The notes under the pieces were generated by a model. That model ran no database searches. It was not told the origin of the DNA and worked only from the letters and a program-made list of their open reading frames with translations. A stretch of DNA of 61,208 bases from Leisingera daeponensis (GTDB lineage Bacteria > Pseudomonadota > Alphaproteobacteria > Rhodobacterales > Rhodobacteraceae), in assembly GCF_019801465.1 (NCBI RefSeq), contig NZ_JAHVJA010000017.1, forward strand, positions 1 to 61,208, read 5' to 3'. The translations under genes were made by a program, and so were the position numbers. Positions 50,301 through 61,208 of the stretch are shown piece after piece; within the stretch, counting starts at the first letter, position 1; every line of letters begins with the position of its first letter.

Positions 50301-50975
50301 CTAGCAGCCGGCACGGCGTTCCAGCGGTGTCCCCGGGTCACCTGACGGAACACATGCAGACACCGCCACAAGTTCAGCCGCAAGCTCAAGTACCAGAGCA
50401 TTGACCGCTGACCGCGCCTGATCCTGCGATTTCTTCCCTCGCAGCTTGCGGGCAAGGCCAGACTTGCGGGCGGAGGTGTCCTGCACCAGCAGCAGGAACG
50501 CAATTTCGCGCAGCTGATGCATGGCCAGATCGGCCTCGTCCTGCCCCAGATCCTGTGCAAGTCCTTCCGGCGCGGCGGTGTCCGCCAGCAAACGCTTTAA
50601 AGCGGGCCCGTGCTTTGACGTCTCCGCCCTGGTAATGCAAAGGTCAGTCATCTCCGCCATTCCCGAAAGAAAGACTTCAACCGCCAACCGCGCAGTCTGT
50701 TTGGAATAGCCGGCCTGCCGCTGAACATTGAGATCCCCCCGCGCTGCGTCAAAGGAGATGATCAACCCGTCAGTGGACAGATCCGGCGCCCCCGGGCGCC
50801 CAAAGCGTTGGTGCAGGCTGAGCGCTTCCGCAAAAAGCACCAGCTGCAACAAACCGGCCTGCGAAAGATCGCAGGAGATACGCTGTATGCCGCTGCGCCC
50901 GGCGTGTTTGTAGTTGAGCGCGAGCCGGGCACCGCCGTCTTCCCGCGCTTCAATCGAGAAAATCTTTGCTGGCAT
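50301..50975 (-). CDS. Hypothetical protein, paralogue of the gene at 52433
   Basis: I do not recognise this family. The product of about 224 residues starts at the ATG at 50975 (MPAKIFSIEAREDGGARLAL); an earlier in-frame ATG exists at 50996. It is soluble and helix-rich, with a conserved block EADLAMHQLREIAFLLLVQ and ARKLRGKKSQDQARSAV. It aligns end to end with the product of 52433-53056 at roughly 70 percent identity by eye and has an extra C-terminal tail of about 18 residues. Some DNA similarity between the copies extends upstream of both start codons. The two are oriented back to back around a rearranged segment. No Shine-Dalgarno site is clear. Confidence 0.65.
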   Translation of the reverse strand: MPAKIFSIEAREDGGARLALNYKHAGRSGIQRISCDLSQAGLLQLVLFAEALSLHQRFGRPGAPDLSTDGLIISFDAARGDLNVQRQAGYSKQTARLAVEVFLSGMAEMTDLCITRAETSKHGPALKRLLADTAAPEGLAQDLGQDEADLAMHQLREIAFLLLVQDTSARKSGLARKLRGKKSQDQARSAVNALVLELAAELVAVSACVPSGDPGTPLERRAGC

Positions 50976-51249
50976 GGCGCGAGTTACAGGGAATTCCGCC
51001 GGACTTTCAAGCATGGTGTGCGGCGCCAGCAATGGTGAGCGGCGGGGTGCTCAGTCGCGGCCGTAAATGGCCGGACCCAGCCACCGGGGGCTGCGCAGCT
51101 TGCCGCCCCGGGCCAGACCTGCGCGGTCACTGAGCCGCTGCACGAAACCTGCACAAAAGCCCCCTGAAACCTGCGGAGACGGCGCGGCAAAGCTGCAAGG
51201 GGGGCAGGCATCCTGCCGGGCAAAGAAGACTGCAAGCAGGAGACAGGAC

Positions 51250-51992: not shown

Positions 51993-52210
51993 AACGGTCT
52001 CTTTCTTTCATAGGTAAATAAACTGCCGTGAGCCGGGCTCGGGGCGTATTGATGCCGGCCTGCCGCCGCCTGTCCGGACATCCCGCCGGAGCCGGACGCG
52101 AAAGCGCGGATTTCCTGGTAACGGATCCGCACATCCTCGCTTTGCTGGTAAAAGGTAAGCGGTGTATCCGCCCCGGAAATTGCCGCCGCCGCCGAATTTT
52201 TTGCAGGCAT
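51989..52210 (-). CDS. Small hypothetical protein upstream of the truncated exported protein
   Basis: A 73-residue frame with a protein-like stretch (TPLTFYQQSEDVRIRYQEIRAFASGSG) ends in a 4-bp ATGA overlap with the next start, a normal operon arrangement. No family is recognised and the ribosome-binding site is weak. It may be real or a remnant. Confidence 0.35.
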   Translation of the reverse strand: MPAKNSAAAAISGADTPLTFYQQSEDVRIRYQEIRAFASGSGGMSGQAAAGRHQYAPSPAHGSLFTYERKRPL

Positions 52211-52432
52211 GCATTCACAAGACTATCGCTCCAATCAAAGACGGACCAAGCGATTCCCCTTCGCTGAACACCGTATTTCCGCGTGGCCTGAAAGAATCCG
52301 GAATGGCCAAGGGTGCTCTTGCAACACGTCCCTTCCATTTTCTGCCGGACCTTGGGCGCATGATTGCCTAGCACCGCAGAACCTTGTCGGCCGCAGCTTG
52401 AAGGTCCGGCAGCCTTCCATATAACCCGCGCC

Positions 52433-53056
52433 ATGGCTGCAAAGATATTTTCGATGGAGGCGCGGGAGGACGGCGGTGCCCGGCTCGCGCTCAACTACAA
52501 GCACACTGGCCGCAGTGGCATCCAGCGTATTTCCTGCGATCTGCCGCAGGCCGGTCTTTTGCAGCTGGTGCTCTTTGCGGAAGCGCTCAGCCTGCGCAAG
52601 CGCTTCGGAACCCCCATTACATCGGACGTGTCGCTCGATGGGCTTGTGATGTCCTATGACCCGGCCCAGCGGGAGCTCCTTGTCGAGCGGCAGGCCGGTT
52701 ATTCCAGGCAGACAGCAAGCATGCCGGTTGAGGATTTTCACTCCGAGATGGCGGGTATGACCGACATCTGTATTGCCTGGGCCGAGGCGTCAAAACACGG
52801 GCCCGCCCTGAAGCGCCTGCTGTTCGACTGCGCGGCACCGGCTGAACTAAAAAGGCTGCTAGGGCAAAACGAGGCCGATCTGGCCATGCATCAGATGCGG
52901 GAAATCGCCCTTCTGCTGCTGGCACAGGAAGCCTCCGCCCGCGGGTCCGCGCTGGCCCGCAAGTTGCGCGGGAAGAAATCGCAGGATCAAGCCTGGGAGG
53001 CGGTGAGCTGCCTTGTACTGGAGCTTGCCGCTGAACTCGTTCCAGTTTCTGCCTAA
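52433..53056 (+). CDS. Hypothetical protein, paralogue of the gene at 50301
   Basis: The 207-residue product (MAAKIFSMEAREDGGARLAL to ELVPVSA) is of the same unrecognised family as the minus-strand gene at 50301-50975. Shared blocks are RSGIQRISCDL, QAGLLQLVLFAEALSL, EASKHGPALKRLL, and LARKLRGKKSQDQA. The frame opens upstream at a TTG (52364), and the similarity to the paralogue continues a few codons before the ATG (PAAFHITRAM against PAEFPVTRAM), so the true start could be earlier. The two genes flank a rearrangement. Confidence 0.65.
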   Translation: MAAKIFSMEAREDGGARLALNYKHTGRSGIQRISCDLPQAGLLQLVLFAEALSLRKRFGTPITSDVSLDGLVMSYDPAQRELLVERQAGYSRQTASMPVEDFHSEMAGMTDICIAWAEASKHGPALKRLLFDCAAPAELKRLLGQNEADLAMHQMREIALLLLAQEASARGSALARKLRGKKSQDQAWEAVSCLVLELAAELVPVSA

Positions 53057-53183
53057 GCTCGAACAAGGGGGCGCAGTGCTAAACGGATTAAGGCTATGAA
53101 GACTTGCAAGTATCACCGGGAAGCCGTCCAGACACGGCTTTGGGCCGGAACCCCGCATGGGGATCCGGCTGTGTGAGAATGCG

Positions 53184-53209
53184 TCACCGCCCTGTAGGCA
53201 GGGCGGTGA
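53184..53209. repeat. Perfect hairpin at the left end of the IS66 element
   Basis: TCACCGCCCTG (53184-53194) pairs with CAGGGCGGTGA (53199-53209) around a TAGG loop. It lies 8 bp beyond the transposase stop codon and could act as a terminator shielding against outside or inside transcription. Confidence 0.5.
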
Positions 53210-53216
53210 TAGCCTG

Positions 53217-54887
53217 TCAGTCGTCGATCCGGCCGACCGGGCAGTGCCAGGGCATCAGCTGGCCATAGTCCAACTCACCGCGGTTGCGCTCGATTTCCTG
53301 CACCACCCAGTTCAGGTAGCTGCGGGGGTTGACCTTGTTCAGGCGCGCGCTTTCGATGAGCGAATAGTAGGTTGCCCAGACTTCAGCCGCCTCATGGTTC
53401 CCGGCGAAAAGCGAGTTCTTCTTCGTTAGAGCAATGCCGCGGATGCAGCGTTCGACTGCGTTGTTATCGATCTCAAGCCGGCCATCGAACACGAACCGCG
53501 GCAGCCCGTCAAAGGCGTTGAGCGTGTAGTTGATGGCCGTTTTCAGTTTCCCGGTGGCGTCTTCCTGATGTTTCGTCAGGATGGCTTTGAGCTCGGTCAG
53601 GATGGGCAGGGTTTTCTCGAGGCGCAACTGTTCGCGCGCCTCCGGGGGCAGGCCTTTGGCCGCCTTTTCGACAGCATACATTTTGCGGTACATCTGCACG
53701 ACCTTGGCTGCCAGCTTGCTCTTGGTTGCCAGATGGGCTTCGAAGAACTTGCGCCGTGCATGGGCATTGCAGCGCACCGGCATCAGACCGTCATTCTCCC
53801 GGCTGTCTTTAAAGAGACAGTTGTAACCCGAGTAGCCGTCAGTCTGCAGGAAACGGAGCGACGCGCCAGAAAGCAATTCCTCTGCAACTGCGCCGGCACG
53901 GGAATGGGCATAGCGATACACCACAGCAGGCCGGGCTTCCGAGTTCCAATCGCGTTCATCGCGGTTGATCACCCAAAAATACCCGGTGTCGCACTTTCCC
54001 TTTCCAGGCGCCTGAACCTTCACCGGGGTCTCATCCATTTGTGCGGTATGACCAGCAAGCACATGCGCATGAAGCTCGTCCTGGACCGGCACCAGATGTT
54101 TTGCCAAGTGAGCAACAACCTTGTCGATCGTTTGGCGGGCCAGGTTGATGTTGGCGTTCCTGAACCGCCGCTCCAGCCGATAGGGCGGGATATGCTCGAA
54201 AAACTTCTGACATGCAACTTCGGCCGCAAATCCCGGCTCCAGACTACGTCCCTTCATGATGTAGTTTTTGGATTTCGCAGCCACGGGTTTGTTCTCCTTG
54301 CAGATCCCGTGGTTACACGCGCAGGTGTGATATACGTCTTTCACCAGAACCACATGCTCCGGCACGATCCGGAAGCTCCCGGCACGTTCCTCACGCTTGA
54401 TCGTCTTGAGATCATGCCCGCATGTGCCGCAGCTCATATCGTCGGGGAAATGATCAACGGTGATGACCTTGATATCCTTGGGCACTTTGCGCGAGCGCTT
54501 ACCCTTGGGTTTTTCCTTCGGTTCATCGTCAAGGTCATCGTCAAGCGCGAGGCCAAGGTCATCTTCCGCGGGATCGCCGAGGTCTTTTTCCGAGCTCTGC
54601 CCGAAATGCTCCTGGCGCAGCACCGCCAATTGCTCCGTCACCCGGCGCAGATCGCTCTTGAGCGCAGAGATCCGCCGTTTTGCAGACTGGACTTCGCCTT
54701 CAGTCTCGGAGAACAGCGACAGAATGCTGCTGATCCGTGTGCCGATCTCAACCGTGGCTTCCTCAGGGCTGCTGGGAAGCTGGCGAACAGCGCTGAGAAT
54801 GCCGTCGCAAAGAAAGCCAATAGGGCTCAGCTCGCCAGCATCCGTTTCCTGCTGACCCGGCAGCCAGCCGGGCTCTTGAATGGTCAT
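53217..54887 (-). CDS. IS66 family transposase (TnpC)
   Basis: The 556-residue transposase has an N-terminal coiled-coil region (about 60-100), a zinc-finger-like CGTCGHDL near residue 152 and a second cysteine group CACNHGIC. The catalytic DDE residues lie in MDETPVKV, TDGYSGYN and the EIDNNAVERCIRG block. An acidic linker (LALDDDLDDEPKEKPKGK) lies between coiled coil and finger. The frame is intact, so the element may be active. Confidence 0.93.
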   Translation of the reverse strand: MTIQEPGWLPGQQETDAGELSPIGFLCDGILSAVRQLPSSPEEATVEIGTRISSILSLFSETEGEVQSAKRRISALKSDLRRVTEQLAVLRQEHFGQSSEKDLGDPAEDDLGLALDDDLDDEPKEKPKGKRSRKVPKDIKVITVDHFPDDMSCGTCGHDLKTIKREERAGSFRIVPEHVVLVKDVYHTCACNHGICKENKPVAAKSKNYIMKGRSLEPGFAAEVACQKFFEHIPPYRLERRFRNANINLARQTIDKVVAHLAKHLVPVQDELHAHVLAGHTAQMDETPVKVQAPGKGKCDTGYFWVINRDERDWNSEARPAVVYRYAHSRAGAVAEELLSGASLRFLQTDGYSGYNCLFKDSRENDGLMPVRCNAHARRKFFEAHLATKSKLAAKVVQMYRKMYAVEKAAKGLPPEAREQLRLEKTLPILTELKAILTKHQEDATGKLKTAINYTLNAFDGLPRFVFDGRLEIDNNAVERCIRGIALTKKNSLFAGNHEAAEVWATYYSLIESARLNKVNPRSYLNWVVQEIERNRGELDYGQLMPWHCPVGRIDD

Positions 54888-55182
54888 TGCAAATTTTCCT
54901 CATGGGGTATCGGCCTCCGCCCGCCAACCGGACGCAGGGAGTCACACACCGGGGCTGCGCGAAGCTGGCCCCGCTGAGGCACCATTCCGTGAAGACAGGC
55001 AAAGACAGTCCGTCCCGCCCTGCCGTTTACGGTCAGGGCCGGTTCGCTCATCTTTCCATTTGGGGAAGTGTGCCTATTGGGTGAGGAAGGCCGTCGCCCA
55101 CGCAGAAGCCTTGCGACGGATCGCAGGATTTGCTAAGGGACCAGTGTCAACGCTGGCGGGTTTCGGTCTGCCTCGAACGATC

Positions 55183-55214
55183 ACGCCGGAATGCGCCAAC
55201 ATTCCGGTGTTTTC
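55183..55214 (+). terminator. Terminator-like hairpin without an upstream gene
   Basis: ACGCCGGAATG (55183-55193) pairs with CATTCCGGTGT (55200-55210), one G-U pair, loop CGCCAA, followed by TTTCG. It has rho-independent form on the plus strand, yet no plus-strand gene ends nearby, so it may mark a decayed gene or a small RNA. Confidence 0.5.
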
Positions 55215-55836
55215 GTTTCTAAAGAAGTTCAGGTCTTCATTCTGGTCTCTCCTTCTGCTGATCTTCGTGGCGAGGCTGTTTACACCGGTTCGGGCGAAGA
55301 TGGAATAATTTCACTTAAATCAATGCCTTGTGCGAAAATTGGACTGCAGCTTCGATAGTCTCGGAGAACGCACCCGCTGCACACGAAGACATTGTGCTTC
55401 GCTGCAATTCCCCCACAAATTACAGGTCTTGGCGCTCCCTCGCTGCTGTGCAGGAAACTTGCGAAAACGGCTCCACAGCGGATGCCGCCTTCACAAAGTT
55501 TCCGTTTGTACAATGACCAGGGAGCTTCTGGCCCCCAAGATTCCCAGACCGGCGGCCGTTTTTCGGCAGACGATTCGAGAGGTAATAAGCTGTCAGAGGA
55601 ACCGCACGGCTGAACGTGCCCTCACGCTGATCCTGGATGGATCAGCGTATGTGTCCGCAGGCGGCGAGGGTGATATGAGAGATAGTGTTCAGCATCATAG
55701 GCGGAGATTACCCAGCTGCTGCTGCGAAGAGCAATCCGCGCAGTGTGGGGAAAGCCCTTGCCTCAGGAAGATTGTGATATTTTTACAACTTAAGATATTT
55801 ATTTAAGCGCACCCTTCAATCAACAGGTTGTAGAAT

Positions 55837-55895
55837 CCCCTTCCTATAAAGCCCATAGGGCTGTTAGCTAGGAAGGGGCGGCAGGCGAACCGCCC
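55837..55895 (+). ncRNA. Candidate structured RNA with competing hairpins
   Basis: CCCCTTCCTA (55837-55846) pairs perfectly with TAGGAAGGGG (55869-55878); inside the loop GCCC-ATA-GGGC (55851-55861) forms a second stem. GGGCGG (55876-55881), which shares bases with the large stem, can instead pair with CCGCCC (55890-55895). Two mutually exclusive folds are the hallmark of an attenuator or riboregulator. It lies 440 bp before the HerA gene. No known family is recognised. Confidence 0.35.
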
Positions 55896-56205
55896 GGATC
55901 AGGACGGCAATTTTCGTTAAAGAATCTTTGTTGGCCTTCCAGAAAACGCCGTCATTCCCAAAAAAATGTTGACAACTCTGGGCCTGCCTCATTCGAAGTG
56001 AGCGATTTCAGGAATACTGATAAAAGGTGCAGAGGAAATGGACCGACCGCTCTCCATCTTTCGCGCCTCTCGTGGACACAGTTTCCAGTACTAAATTTGG
56101 CACTGCTCCTTAGGGTTTGTCGGACCGTGATGATCGCAGGCGGCGGCATGAAGCCTGGGCCCAAATGGGTCAAACAGCTACAGTTAGCATCCGCCGTTAA
56201 ACCAC

Positions 56206-56379
56206 ATGCGAAAGGATCTTAGGAAACTTTTACTACTTGGCATTGCAGAGCAGGACGACATTGCGGATGATGAGGGGGCTTTGTTTTTCATAGGCACTCT
56301 TTATGAGGGCCAGCCCGCTCGGAGACGACTAGATGCCAGGATTTACAGAACTACGCGATTTCGAGGCGGAGCTCGTTGA
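56206..56379 (+). CDS. Possible 57-residue ORF overlapping the start of the HerA gene
   Basis: The ATG at 56206 opens MRKDLRKLLLLGIAEQDDIA, followed by a stretch of plausible composition (GALFFIGTLYEGQP), and ends at 56379, 47 bp inside the HerA gene in another frame. No ribosome-binding site is obvious. It could be a small first gene of the defence operon, a remnant, or chance. Confidence 0.25.
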   Translation: MRKDLRKLLLLGIAEQDDIADDEGALFFIGTLYEGQPARRRLDARIYRTTRFRGGAR

Positions 56380-58417
56380 AGGAATGGATGTGCCGGGGCA
56401 AGAGACAACAAGTGAAGCGGGTCCGGTGGCCGAGATCGCCAGAAGCTACCAACCTGAACGATCACAGCCAGGACATCACGAAAACCTTCTCGGTTTTATC
56501 CTAAACCTCTCTTACGACGATGTTACCATCGTGACCTGCGATGCGTGGAAACGCAACTGCGGCGGTGTGCCCCGCAACACCCTCGTGGTAGTGCGGCTAG
56601 CCCCGACACGGGTTTCAAGGGCGGAAGGAAAGGCCTGCGACCGCCTGATCATGGTGCGCATCACAGACTCAATCCCGACGCCGATAGATAGCGACATCAA
56701 GCAGACTGTTTTCGAGTTACATAGAAGTCAGGCCAATATCGACCCAATCTCGGACAAGGAATTCCAGTGGTCCGCTCTCAAGGGTCGGATTGTCGGCACC
56801 TTTTACGACAAGGCTGCCGAGGAAGGGCACCTGGAGATTGGCTTCGGCCCAGACGTGGATACCTTCTTCGCGCCACATCTATACGAGGTCTACGTTCCAA
56901 TCCGCGATCATCTCTCGGAGATGCTAAACGCCTTTAGTGAAGCGCCAGATCCGCTCCAGATTGGTACCTTGCGCTACACGGAAACCCCTTCCATCGTGAC
57001 CCAAGGCCATGTCGAAATCAAAATCGATCCTTCTGATTTCACCGGAAAGACTTACGGTCATAGAACGGCGCTTTTCGGTAAAACTCGGTTCGGCAAATCG
57101 AACACGATGAAGGTTGTTGCCGACACAGTTCTCACAGGCGGGAGAGCCGGTCAGATCATCTTCGATCCCTCGGGAGAGTACACGTACTGGAACGAGCAAG
57201 ACGATGGATGTCTCGCGGCACGCTACCCTAAGAAATGCGTCCGCTACAGCTTAAGCCCGATGCCGCGGGAAAGTGACAAACGCTCTGGTCTTCCGGAACC
57301 TTCCTCCCTGAAAGTCGACTTCTATGCCAACCCAGACGTAGGTAAGAGTCTGATTTTTAGTCTTTGGGAAAGCGAGTACGGGAGCAGTATTCCCGACTAC
57401 ATCGCACCAGCCCGCGAGTGGGAGCCTGAGCCTTTAGCATCAGCACCAACACTCGCCAGCGATCAAAGTGGCTACAAGCGTTACTGGCGAACAATGGGGA
57501 TTTGGTACTCCATTCTCGCCGAAGCTGGCTTTCCGCCACCGACCGGAAACATCTGGGTGGATTTCAGGAAGGATGTGAAGGACCAACTTCTTGCCGACGA
57601 ACAGCTAAAGCAGACCATTGAAGGTGCCGATGGCAAAATGAAGAATATGCTGCCTTACCGCGTGGCAGCAAATGTCTGGAAGAGGGTTGCCGAAATACAC
57701 GCGGATGCAAGTGCGTCGGATAGGCGCAAACTGTTCCCTGCGTCCAGCACGACCGGCGACCCTTACTTTGACCCGACCGCAGCGGGCCTTTTGGCCATCT
57801 TGAATGGGGCGGCTCGGGGCGCGTCAGGCCCAAAGAAATTCACCCGTTTCAAGGAATACCACGCGGTGGGCGGGGCCAACGTCTTCACCAAAGTCATAGA
57901 AGAAGCGCACTCCGGAAAGACGGTTTTTTTGGATCTGTCCATGGGCGACGAGAAGGTACGAAAAGCGATCGCCGAGCGGATAGCTCGTTCGCTTCTGGCA
58001 AGTCAGATGCGGCGCTTCAATGAAGGCGCTCTGGGAACTGATATGGTCATCCTCTACTTTGAGGAAGCTCACATCTTGTTCCCGAGTGACGATCGCGGAT
58101 TGGGAGACAACGTCTACAACAAGCTTGCCAAGGAAGGCGCGAAGTTCAATATCTCTCTTGTTTACGCCACGCAGTCGATCTCTACGCTGTCGCCTGACTT
58201 AGTAAAAAATACTGAGAATTTTATCGTCACGCATCTCGACGATGATCGCGAGGTGCGTGAACTTCAGCACAAGCGGGCCTTTCGCGATATAGCAGCCGAT
58301 GTCGAACGGATCACATCGAAGGGGTATGTACGGCTCAAAACGCTTTCGATGCCTTTCGCTTTGCCAGTTCAAATCCGCAAATTCTCCGGAGCACCGGACC
58401 CATCACGGGAAGACTGA
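56333..58417 (+). CDS. herA: HerA-type DNA-translocating ATPase (DUF87 family)
   Basis: The 694-residue P-loop ATPase is of the HerA/FtsK superfamily. An N-terminal beta-rich region (about 40-240, HAS-barrel position) precedes Walker A GKTRFGKS (residues 249-256), where Arg-Phe replaces the usual small residues. The post-Walker DPSGEYT follows. Walker B is MVILYFEEAH (571-580), and the sensor segment reads YATQSISTLSPDLVKNTENF. HerA forms a hexamer that pumps DNA into NurA, whose gene follows after 3 bp. The ATG at 56333 has GGAG 9 bp upstream. Codon use is visibly less GC-rich than in the metabolic region. Confidence 0.88.
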   Translation: MPGFTELRDFEAELVEGMDVPGQETTSEAGPVAEIARSYQPERSQPGHHENLLGFILNLSYDDVTIVTCDAWKRNCGGVPRNTLVVVRLAPTRVSRAEGKACDRLIMVRITDSIPTPIDSDIKQTVFELHRSQANIDPISDKEFQWSALKGRIVGTFYDKAAEEGHLEIGFGPDVDTFFAPHLYEVYVPIRDHLSEMLNAFSEAPDPLQIGTLRYTETPSIVTQGHVEIKIDPSDFTGKTYGHRTALFGKTRFGKSNTMKVVADTVLTGGRAGQIIFDPSGEYTYWNEQDDGCLAARYPKKCVRYSLSPMPRESDKRSGLPEPSSLKVDFYANPDVGKSLIFSLWESEYGSSIPDYIAPAREWEPEPLASAPTLASDQSGYKRYWRTMGIWYSILAEAGFPPPTGNIWVDFRKDVKDQLLADEQLKQTIEGADGKMKNMLPYRVAANVWKRVAEIHADASASDRRKLFPASSTTGDPYFDPTAAGLLAILNGAARGASGPKKFTRFKEYHAVGGANVFTKVIEEAHSGKTVFLDLSMGDEKVRKAIAERIARSLLASQMRRFNEGALGTDMVILYFEEAHILFPSDDRGLGDNVYNKLAKEGAKFNISLVYATQSISTLSPDLVKNTENFIVTHLDDDREVRELQHKRAFRDIAADVERITSKGYVRLKTLSMPFALPVQIRKFSGAPDPSRED

Positions 58418-58420
58418 ACC

Positions 58421-59758
58421 ATGCCCTATCAGAAAAGGGGCGGAGCCGGCTTCGAAGCGGCTTCCAAGATCGCGCACATGGAGATGATTCAGCACCCTGT
58501 TCTCCAGAGCGTGGTGCAAAGCCTACGTGTAGATGATGCGCCACGCACACCTGCGGGAACGGAGCCGACCCTCCGCGTTGATATCGCGCAAGCGCCAGTG
58601 ATCGAGGATATCGTGACCGTAGATGCGGGACTTCAGGTCGTGCCGAACCCGGTGCGCCGAGAGAAGGCCATGTCCTTCATCAACCCTGGGGCTAGCCTGC
58701 TCCGCCTTGCTGATCTTGAGAGGCTCGCGGCCGATCCGATCATGGATCCTCGGGACATGAGTGACATCTTGGGCCGACATACGCTGCGGCCAGCCTACCT
58801 GCCGCTTCGGGGTGTGCGCATGGGGTCGCGCTCAATGAAGGACACGCTTCGGGAGGTTATAAACGCCACTCTGTGCCGGGGTATTACAGATCTCTACGAC
58901 GTGCTCGAGTTTCTCCTCTTCGAGGGGTGGCTGCCGCAGGGAGCGCCCCGCGCAAAGCGGTCCATGAAGTGCCTCGATTGCCGACAGGAGTTTGACTTAC
59001 CGCCGAAGCAGATTTTCGGCTGCCCTCATTGCGCGCACGCGCACTATCTGTCGGACTACCTCGGCCTATTGTCAGATTCAGACAGCGAAGAGTCGCCGGG
59101 CGAAGAGGTGGCGCATGGCTTCATGGGCGTTCTGGAAGTCTTGTGCCTCTTCCGTCTGCCAATGCTCCTGACCAAAGCGAACCGCGACGCGCGGCTTGCC
59201 AACATCCTTTTTATAAAGGACGGGTCTTTGATGCTCCGCGCCGCCGGATTTCGGGTTGTCGACGGAATCCGGCGTTACCTCGATTGGCTACGGGCTAAAG
59301 GTTCTCCGATGCATCTTGTTGGCGTAGAGAAAACCGGGCAAATGACCGAATTCCTTGAGGACTTTTCGCAAGCCGTGCCGCAGCCAGGCGATGTCTTTAT
59401 GCCGCCACGACGCTTTATCAAGGAAGAGATCCAAGGCCGAAGCTATGATCCAGAGGGGTATCGCGACCGGGTTAGCTACGGCACTAGAATTGGGGTCCGA
59501 CTGTCCGAGACCCACGTAGTGGCCCTTCAGACACCTGCTACAACTCTCGCCAATGGCGGGCCCGAAGTCCCAGTCCCTACCGATTTTCCCGAGCTCGAAG
59601 AGATTGTGCGGACGCTATCGAGACTGACAAGCGCGCGCTATCCGAATGCTCTACTACCCCTTGTGCATGCTAACCGACAGGTCAGCCTCGCGAACGGCCG
59701 CTCCTCCAGAATCTTGGAAGAGTACGTGATGTCACTTATGCGGGGCGGCGGGGCTTAA
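58421..59758 (+). CDS. nurA: NurA-like nuclease with a zinc-ribbon insertion
   Basis: The 445-residue protein carries the NurA-type active-site motif KDGSL (Asp267-Gly-Ser269) in a strand context (NILFIKDGSLMLRAAG). A later strand ends in LVGVEKTGQMTEF, matching the NurA pattern in which a second motif with a lysine follows. Before it lies a four-cysteine zinc ribbon, C184-x2-C187 and C201-x2-C204. The N-terminal 180 residues are family-specific. NurA nucleases degrade DNA fed by HerA. It starts 3 bp after the HerA stop, with GGGAAG upstream. The assignment rests on motif plus neighbour; overall similarity is weak. Confidence 0.68.
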   Translation: MPYQKRGGAGFEAASKIAHMEMIQHPVLQSVVQSLRVDDAPRTPAGTEPTLRVDIAQAPVIEDIVTVDAGLQVVPNPVRREKAMSFINPGASLLRLADLERLAADPIMDPRDMSDILGRHTLRPAYLPLRGVRMGSRSMKDTLREVINATLCRGITDLYDVLEFLLFEGWLPQGAPRAKRSMKCLDCRQEFDLPPKQIFGCPHCAHAHYLSDYLGLLSDSDSEESPGEEVAHGFMGVLEVLCLFRLPMLLTKANRDARLANILFIKDGSLMLRAAGFRVVDGIRRYLDWLRAKGSPMHLVGVEKTGQMTEFLEDFSQAVPQPGDVFMPPRRFIKEEIQGRSYDPEGYRDRVSYGTRIGVRLSETHVVALQTPATTLANGGPEVPVPTDFPELEEIVRTLSRLTSARYPNALLPLVHANRQVSLANGRSSRILEEYVMSLMRGGGA

Positions 59759-59774
59759 CAATCGGAGGAGCGGG

Positions 59775-60815
59775 ATGGTGTCTCAAGCCGTGGGCAACCA
59801 AGCACAAATAAAAGAAGGCAAAACGCAATCTGCGGCCGTCGTTCAGGAAGCCTGCAAGCCATTCCTCCGCTGGGCCGGCGGCAAACGATGGCTCGCACGC
59901 AGCCTCGCACCGATACTGAGACGTCATCTTGATACGAGCGGTGGCACCTACATCGAGCCCTTCCTGGGATCGGGTGCGATCTTTTATGCAACAGCTCCGG
60001 CCCGCGCGATCCTAAACGACCTAAATGAAGACCTTGTTTTGGCGCATGCGGCTGTGGCCGACGTGCCTGACTACCTAGTCAAAGCCTTAGCCTCCTTGCC
60101 GGTAGATAGAGAAACCTACAACGCAGTCAGGGAACTCGCACCCAAATCCCCATTTGAGCGTGCCGTGCGAATGATTTGGCTCAATCGCACCTGTTATGGC
60201 GGCATTCACCGGACCAACAAGCAAGGCCAATTTAACACTCCTTATGGAGGAGGCTCTAGGCGCCCGGACGTATTGTGGCGAGAAGGGATCGTTGAGGGAT
60301 GCGCCCAAGTTTTATCCGGAGATATTGACCTTACGGTTGGAGACTTCGAAGCCGCTATCGACCGAGCAGGAGACGGGGATGTTGTCTTCTGTGATCCCAC
60401 TTACTCGAACCCTAATCGCGATCATTTCGACCGCTATGGCCCTTCAGTTTTTTCTTGGGCTGATCAGGTACGACTGTCTTCTGCGTGCCGAAGAGCTCTT
60501 GGCCGAGGTGCTACAGTCATCGTGACCAATGGCGCTTATTCCCAATTGGCCGAGATCTATCCCGATGCTTACCGGATCACCCTAAAGCGAGCGACGAGCA
60601 TGGGGGTGCGTCGGAAAGCTGGAACGGATGACGAGTATCTCTTTATCCTTGATCCGTGGAAACGTCGCCGAAAGTGGGCCGGGTTGGGCGAGATCGAGAA
60701 CCGCCTCAAGCAGGCGGCTGAGGCGAGCCGCGTGTCTGCTCTGAGCGAAGCCCGTCGGCCGAAAGTGCAAGCACCTCGGGCAATTGTTCGACCGATCGAA
60801 CCTGTGCTGGACTAA
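59775..60815 (+). CDS. D12-class (Dam-type) DNA adenine-N6 methyltransferase
   Basis: The 346-residue methyltransferase has the Dam-family order: KPFLRWAGGKRWLARSLAPIL near residue 29, the AdoMet motif EPFLGSGAIFY (F63 to G67), LNDLNEDLV, NRTCYGG-type target-domain start, and motif IV DPTY (D207-Y210), with Thr instead of the usual Pro at position 3. It would methylate adenine at N6 in a short site such as GATC-like sequences; the specificity cannot be read off. A strong GGAGGAG site precedes the ATG, 16 bp after the NurA stop, so it is in the same operon. An extra C-terminal region (about 290-346) is rich in Arg and Ala. Confidence 0.88.
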   Translation: MVSQAVGNQAQIKEGKTQSAAVVQEACKPFLRWAGGKRWLARSLAPILRRHLDTSGGTYIEPFLGSGAIFYATAPARAILNDLNEDLVLAHAAVADVPDYLVKALASLPVDRETYNAVRELAPKSPFERAVRMIWLNRTCYGGIHRTNKQGQFNTPYGGGSRRPDVLWREGIVEGCAQVLSGDIDLTVGDFEAAIDRAGDGDVVFCDPTYSNPNRDHFDRYGPSVFSWADQVRLSSACRRALGRGATVIVTNGAYSQLAEIYPDAYRITLKRATSMGVRRKAGTDDEYLFILDPWKRRRKWAGLGEIENRLKQAAEASRVSALSEARRPKVQAPRAIVRPIEPVLD

Positions 60816-60987
60816 CACCATTTAACGAAGTTGGTTCAGCGACCTAAAGCCCCAGAGTAAAATGGAAAATTCCAAGTCAACGCGCTTACCAAACCTCCGG
60901 CCGCTAATGCTCTCAGCGCACTAAGCTGTTAGGTGTCAGGCAAAACCGACTTTTGTGTCACGTCGCTGACCCAGGTTGCGAGCTGCA

Positions 60988-61007
60988 CACGAAGGCGGAC
61001 CTTCGTG
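60988..61007. repeat. Perfect hairpin downstream of the methyltransferase gene
   Basis: CACGAAGG-CGGA-CCTTCGTG is an 8-bp perfect dyad 170 bp after the operon end, with no T-run on either strand. It may be a transcript end or part of an old mobile-element flank. Confidence 0.4.
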
Positions 61008-61089
61008 GATAGTGCGGAGAATGTCGGGACCGAGCCCATACTGTGAATTTGATTTTCTTGCTGCGTGGGCTCGCAGTAGGGATAATGCG

Positions 61090-61208
61090 TGTGAACAGGC
61101 ATGCAATTTTGACCCCGTAGCGGGGAAATCGGCGTCCAAAAATGACCCCCTTACACTGATGTGAATCATGCCCCCGAGGTTATCGGGGAGCACAGATTGG
61201 GATGTTGG
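61090..61208 (+). mobile_element. Left end of a probable IS21-family element (runs off the window)
   Basis: A TGTG terminus at 61090 is followed by two direct subterminal repeats, GCAATTTTGACCCC (61103-61116) and CCAAAAATGACCCC (61136-61149), the multiple-repeat pattern of IS21-family ends. Two small CCCCG/CGGGG-type hairpins follow (61113-61125 and 61172-61188). An ATG at 61202 begins ML, as many IstA transposases do, but only two codons are inside the window. Confidence 0.6.

Follow-up and report, generated by a model that had tools for sequence, protein, structure and literature searches.

A 61,208-nucleotide stretch of Leisingera daeponensis DNA, hereafter the window, is the whole of contig C17 of a 4.89-Mb genome and carries a three-gene cassette at positions 56333–60815. 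The genes are predicted to encode a HerA/FtsK-type ATPase, a NurA-type nuclease and an N6-adenine DNA methyltransferase. We read the cassette as a probable restriction-modification-like defence system, with a likelihood of about two in three, in which a TdpAB-like translocase-nuclease is combined with a methyltransferase that replaces the phosphorothioation enzyme. Gene content, intact motifs, conserved linkage, the kinship of the motor with TdpA and a weaker kinship of the nuclease with TdpB form the computed basis of this reading. All three open reading frames (ORFs) are intact, and the gaps between them are 3 and 16 bases, in agreement with an earlier note that had described three tightly spaced genes and proposed a restriction-modification-like function. 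The proposal is strengthened by linkage at other loci, but defence activity itself is a prediction.

Conserved linkage of motor, nuclease and methyltransferase

Thirteen distinct loci were found by way of the nuclease or the ATPase, with the window and Leisingera sp. JC1 counted as one. Searches with the nuclease recovered JC1, Ruegeria and five plasmids, together with one additional locus from the bacterial family and three from the class, and the same five plasmids were returned by two other nuclease queries. An ATPase search of plasmids gave the five known plasmids and one fragment, while an ATPase search of viral contigs added two loci with the full pair (L020 and L021). Viral carriers are known from the ATPase scan alone because the nuclease scans found none: scanned with a nuclease profile and once with a single protein, viral contigs gave no match, and two more nuclease scans returned only their own queries. 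A nuclease search of phage records gave no match. The carriers include Alphaproteobacteria, a Deferribacter megaplasmid, a haloarchaeal plasmid and the two viral contigs.

ATPase and nuclease are neighbours in 13/13 loci; in Deferribacter, an IS200/IS605-TnpB element splits the ATPase gene. In 10/13 loci the gene next to the pair encodes a DNA methyltransferase, which is from one of two unrelated Pfam families and can stand on either side of the pair. A D12 gene follows the nuclease in the window, in Ruegeria (L003) and in L016, and precedes the ATPase in L020 and L021. An N6_N4-type gene precedes the ATPase in L012 and L009 and follows the nuclease in L010, L017 and L018. D12 genes were found in 12/58 genomes of the class, with 14 copies in all (E ≤ 1e-10), so a random neighbour would very rarely be a D12 gene. 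The linkage of ATPase, nuclease and methyltransferase is not accidental. Linkage in other genomes had been set beforehand as a test of the proposal, and these loci provide it.

Pairwise identities of the ATPases and nucleases are correlated with r = 0.98 over 66 pairs of 12 loci (Deferribacter was left out), a value reached by 0/2000 label shuffles. Two parts that travel together would show such a correlation, although r would also be high under common vertical descent alone. In the nuclease tree, L020 and L021 group with the window, L003 and L016, and L012 groups with the cyanobacteria and L009. The deepest split of the ATPase tree is weakly supported (0.24). Placed on the nuclease tree, the methyltransferase appears to have changed family or position several times.

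The cassette might instead be a two-gene HerA-nuclease defence that does not mark self, with the methyltransferase kept for another reason such as anti-restriction or operon regulation. We consider this unlikely. SIR2-HerA and DUF4297-HerA are infection-triggered systems of this kind, and PADLOC contains HerA models from defence systems. A TdpA piece matched 174 plasmid records; among the best 40 of the 174, the three inspected all carry SIR2-HerA pairs and five more are the cassette plasmids. The cyanobacterial loci have the order HTH-HerA-NurA with no methyltransferase adjacent, and the unusual motif IV of the window methyltransferase, described below, could point to low or absent activity. 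Set against these points is a methyltransferase in most loci, drawn from two Pfam families, placed on either side of the pair and always in the same gene run. Because it has been recruited repeatedly, a functional need for the methyltransferase is suggested. The cyanobacterial nucleases are 89–95% identical to one another, so the three loci amount to about one case.

Several matches were discarded. L005 (E 7.5e-4, ~100 residues) lies within an unrelated gene, by eye presumably type VI secretion-like. L022–L025 from IMG/VR, four of the six loci from the ATPase search, match only the last ~150 ATPase residues at 28%; in L022 a SIR2-like gene, identified by eye, precedes the ATPase. A Rubrobacter plasmid match had 13% coverage and no annotated gene. 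The gene order around G1022 was recovered in G1022 only (1/16).

The ATPase

The first gene (56333–58417, + strand, 694 aa) matches DUF87/HerA in Pfam at 4.8e-8 and HerA in PADLOC at 9.3e-14. It contains GKTRFGKSN (249–257), which we take to be Walker A, the motif EEAH (577–580) and Q614, which we take to be the sensor. These key residues are invariant in the family alignment. The identification of this gene as a HerA-type ATPase, made in the earlier note, is supported by both database matches and the intact motifs.

TdpA was the best PDB sequence match for the ATPase in three queries (E 2.8e-36, 1.3e-17 and 4.3e-27). In the query that gave TdpA 1.3e-17, canonical HerA (4d2i) was matched at 2.2e-7. 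These results show that the ATPase is of the TdpA type and kin of TdpA.

The nuclease

The second gene (58421–59758, + strand, 445 aa) gave no nuclease-family match in Pfam (E ≤ 1), PADLOC or NCBIfam. The name NurA cannot be read from this gene alone because no nuclease family matched it by itself. To assign it, the evidence of the relatives is used. Each of the 13 family members was scanned singly, and 6/13 match NurA (PF09376) at E ≤ 1: L008 (4e-5), L007 (2.6e-4), L006 (3.2e-4), L018 (3.7e-4), L012 (4.3e-4) and L009 (0.04). No match at this threshold was obtained for the window, L003, L010, L016, L017, L020 or L021. The Pfam cut-off for PF09376 is 21 bits; L008 (23.7 bits) is the sole member above it, L007 (21.0) is equal to it, and the other ten of the 12 relatives fall below it or have no match. 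4/6 matches reach no further than model position 56 and that of L012 no further than 107, whereas the L018 match spans nearly the whole model. NCBI uses the name NurA for 3/5 plasmid relatives.

D68, E239, D267 and K304, which we take to be the NurA catalytic residues, are invariant in 12/12 aligned family members, as a nuclease of the NurA-type RNase-H fold class would require. C184, C187 and C201 are also invariant in 12/12 aligned members and C204 is present in at least 90%. They define a zinc ribbon (codons 183–204, 58967–59032, + strand) between the first and second acidic motifs. Because the L018 match uses 339 residues for 245 model positions, the zinc-ribbon part appears to be extra to the Pfam model. 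A low-confidence structure model of the nuclease had TdpB as its best structural match, suggesting, more weakly than for the motor and TdpA, a kinship with TdpB.

Taken together, gene 2 most likely encodes a NurA-type nuclease. The invariant acidic residues, the mostly weak PF09376 matches of the relatives and the low-confidence model favour the earlier assignment of the middle gene to NurA, but the protein has no match of its own, and the type is divergent and carries the zinc-ribbon insert. We propose that this insert reads DNA or its mark.

The nuclease family is patchy: it was found in 2/394 genomes of the family, 4/385 of the class and 1/398 of the phylum, with the Leisingera genome counted in each. 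PF09376 was matched in 0/398 genomes of the phylum (E ≤ 0.001) and in 6/14 control genomes. Since most of the cassette nuclease family escapes PF09376, this null covers canonical NurA only, and suggests that canonical NurA is not usual in repair in this phylum. These distributions bear on a role in DNA end resection for recombination repair, as performed by the archaeal and Deinococcus HerA-NurA. The same protein superfamilies are involved, and NurA-HerA of D. radiodurans is reported to resect DNA ends (PMC9960219). A repair role is nevertheless very improbable, given the patchy family, the linkage of the cassettes to methyltransferases and mobile DNA, and TdpAB as the nearest solved relatives. 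The canonical pair of Sulfolobus, Pyrococcus and Deinococcus resembles the cassette in joining a motor to an RNase-H-fold nuclease, but it is known as a repair pair, and the cassette has the additional zinc part and a weaker ATPase match to 4d2i. We know of no methyltransferase partner for canonical HerA-NurA. The original comparison with archaeal end-resection HerA-NurA holds at the level of the superfamilies, while ATPase sequence and nuclease model place the pair nearer to TdpAB.

The methyltransferase

The third gene (59775–60815, + strand, 346 aa) encodes a D12 (Dam-type) N6-adenine DNA methyltransferase. It matches MethyltransfD12 in Pfam at 6e-31 and dam in NCBIfam at 2.1e-47, above the NCBIfam cut-off. 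The closest solved structure is DpnII methyltransferase 1 (2dpm, 4.3e-37). Outside motif IV, the protein aligns well with both 2dpm and E. coli Dam.

Motif IV is DPTY rather than DPPY in the methyltransferases of the window (residues 207–210, bases 60393–60404), L003 and L016. Among the 13 remaining D12 copies in the sample of the class, the motif was found in 10 and is DPPY in 10/10; three of these 10 come from one genome, and L033, L034 and L040 gave no output. L020 and L021 also have DPPY. The DPTY motif could signal a weak or inactive enzyme. Aligned with the DpnII enzyme and E. coli Dam, the window protein keeps one Arg and one Pro that are presumably base contacts. Other contacts differ, and GATC was not concluded to be the target. 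The earlier description of a dedicated Dam-type methyltransferase is right as to the enzyme family, but the enzyme is exchangeable across loci and has DPTY in place of DPPY.

Comparison with known systems

In the Tdp system, TdpC makes the phosphorothioate mark and TdpAB restricts DNA that does not carry it. TdpB is the partner of TdpA in the same cryo-EM complex (PDB 8wet, 8wfd, 8y1k), and judging by its title the report (An et al. 2025 Nat Chem Biol 21:1160) concerns a machinery that DNA phosphorothioation modulates. The cassette resembles Tdp in its ATPase, in the low-confidence model of its nuclease and in having a DNA-modification enzyme. It differs in that the linked modification enzyme is a D12 methyltransferase in the third-gene position, the nuclease has 445 residues and a zinc-ribbon insert as against 375 residues in TdpB, and the ATPase has 694 residues as against 586 in TdpA. 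We class the pair as TdpAB-like and do not class the whole cassette as a Tdp system.

Type II restriction-modification with a D12 methyltransferase of the DpnII/MboI type shares the methyltransferase, as the match to 2dpm indicates. The link between methyltransferase and nuclease that is expected of restriction-modification in general is present in 10/13 loci. The partners in the cassette are an ATP-driven motor and a NurA-type nuclease, not a type II endonuclease. With PADLOC, the three cassette proteins gave only distant MADS matches, to the HerA-like Mad8 (9.4e-11) and the methyltransferase Mad2 (6e-4). The partner nuclease differs from those of SIR2-HerA and DUF4297-HerA in that no SIR2 or DUF4297 domain was found by Pfam or PADLOC, and it matched none of the PADLOC 2.0.0 models. 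HerA-based anti-invader systems with other nucleases are in print (PMC10853773, PMC12839542), and the word NurA occurs 0 times in the main texts of these two papers. No HerA-NurA-methyltransferase defence was among the matches listed in a search of the open-access literature; a description elsewhere is possible (e.g. Iyer 2004, An 2025).

An operon that combines a motor, NurA and methylating enzymes has already been published, with another function. The ICETh1 operon of Thermus thermophilus HB27 is reported to contain a type IIG restriction-methylation enzyme, a NurA homologue, the HerA/FtsK-type TdtA and a putative methylase, the first three of which are needed for DNA donation while the effect of the methylase is minor (PMC5365140, PMC7767461). 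Compared by description rather than by sequence, the two operons share a NurA homologue beside a HerA/FtsK-type ATPase, methylating enzymes and a mobile element. The Thermus operon differs in its type IIG enzyme, its role in donation and its NurA-like protein of 377 aa; no type IIG gene was found among the ORFs of the cassette. The cassette could likewise be a donation module, as proposed for TdtA, with the ATPase as DNA exporter, the nuclease as the enzyme that prepares ends, and a methylating enzyme tied to cutting. Several cassette loci lie near integrases, the Calothrix plasmid is typed as mobilizable (MOBV), and mating-pair typing of the Deferribacter megaplasmid gives MPF_I. On the other side, 4/5 plasmids with a match are typed non-mobilizable, two cassette copies are in viral contigs, and no relaxase or pilus gene was noticed beside the cassettes in ORF lists, which were not searched with models for them. 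The methyltransferase has been recruited repeatedly in the cassettes, whereas transfer in Thermus depends little on the methylase. We judge donation, one of the main competing readings, to be quite an unlikely function of the cassette.

Proposed mechanism

The defence reading can be worked out by analogy with Tdp. The methyltransferase would mark host DNA, probably as m6A, taking the place of TdpC. The ATPase ring would load onto DNA and pump it into the nuclease, which would nick or degrade it. On host DNA the mark would block loading, translocation or cutting, and the host would be spared; unmarked phage or plasmid DNA would be destroyed. We infer from this analogy that the proteins form a complex, that methylation at a recognition site is sensed as a self-signal, perhaps through the zinc-ribbon insert, and that pumping proceeds unless DNA is methylated. 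Three findings weigh against a methylation-guarded defence: the lack of an adjacent methyltransferase in the three cyanobacterial plasmid loci, the failure of 7/13 nuclease family members to match NurA in Pfam, and transfer features on two plasmids (MOBV in Calothrix, MPF_I in the Deferribacter megaplasmid).

If methylation-guarded defence is correct, the cassette is an ATP-driven restriction system spread over bacteria, an archaeal plasmid and viral contigs, with a nuclease of a type that has no model in PADLOC 2.0.0. Phosphorothioation-based and methylation-based immunity would be joined through one motor-nuclease pair, the Thermus NurA-TdtA operon would gain an alternative reading, and how one engine comes to respect a different DNA mark would become a testable question. 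More tentatively, one motor-nuclease engine may in the course of evolution have acquired self-marks of unrelated kinds: phosphorothioate in Tdp, D12 adenine methylation with the gene before or after the pair, and methylation by N6_N4-type enzymes of two distinct kinds. If the marks are swappable, the engine may respond to whichever cognate mark is present, not to one particular chemical group, through a step common to all of them, for example a stall in translocation. The adaptable reader would then be the zinc-ribbon insert or the motor, and the DPTY methyltransferases a specialised sub-form.

Genomic context and neighbouring genes

An IS66-family transposase lies upstream of the cassette (53217–54887, − strand). 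On the right, 61090–61208 at the contig end (strand not assigned) has one further 100% copy in the genome and short partial copies at two more places, and might mark where a mobile element ends. In the right flank up to the contig end, no second transposase can be seen. The cassette had been placed between two insertion elements; the left one is present, but the right side offers only this repeat. The GC content of the cassette genes is 54–59%, against 61.5% for the contig. Positions 52150–61038 are 99.5% identical over 8,889 bases to contig NZ_LYUZ01000158.1 of Leisingera sp. JC1, and the similarity ends at 61038. L020 carries an S24-type repressor and a lambda-type integrase, L021 a phage terminase and a dUTPase, and L003 and L012 are integrase-bearing stretches. 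With the IS66 flank and the plasmid and viral carriers, these features bear out the mobile context suggested at the outset.

Two ORFs of the window, 50301–51032 (− strand) and 52364–53056 (+ strand), are in opposite orientation and have similar protein starts. Positions 50371–51012 share 78% identity with the second ORF as found in JC1.

Other genes of interest lie near the related cassettes. A Septu/PDC-M01 ATPase-HNH pair directly follows the Ruegeria cassette (L003:12587–14971), and a weak SIR2-like match lies further along (L003:19198–20088), so that this stretch is likely a defence island. About 7 kb past the cassette in L018 (17609–18912) are a Vsr-type endonuclease gene, matched by Pfam, and a GIY-YIG-like ORF, recognized by eye; this is perhaps a further restriction locus. 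On a Nostoc plasmid whose locus has no methyltransferase, an AbiTii-family gene comes right after HerA-NurA (L007:9393–10451). The Leisingera genome (G000) has a second HerA-like gene of 610 aa on contig C2 near 628161. It overlaps the start of an ORF that by eye resembles a reverse transcriptase (FMDDF motif), and the two (L051:157–3260) are perhaps another defence pair.

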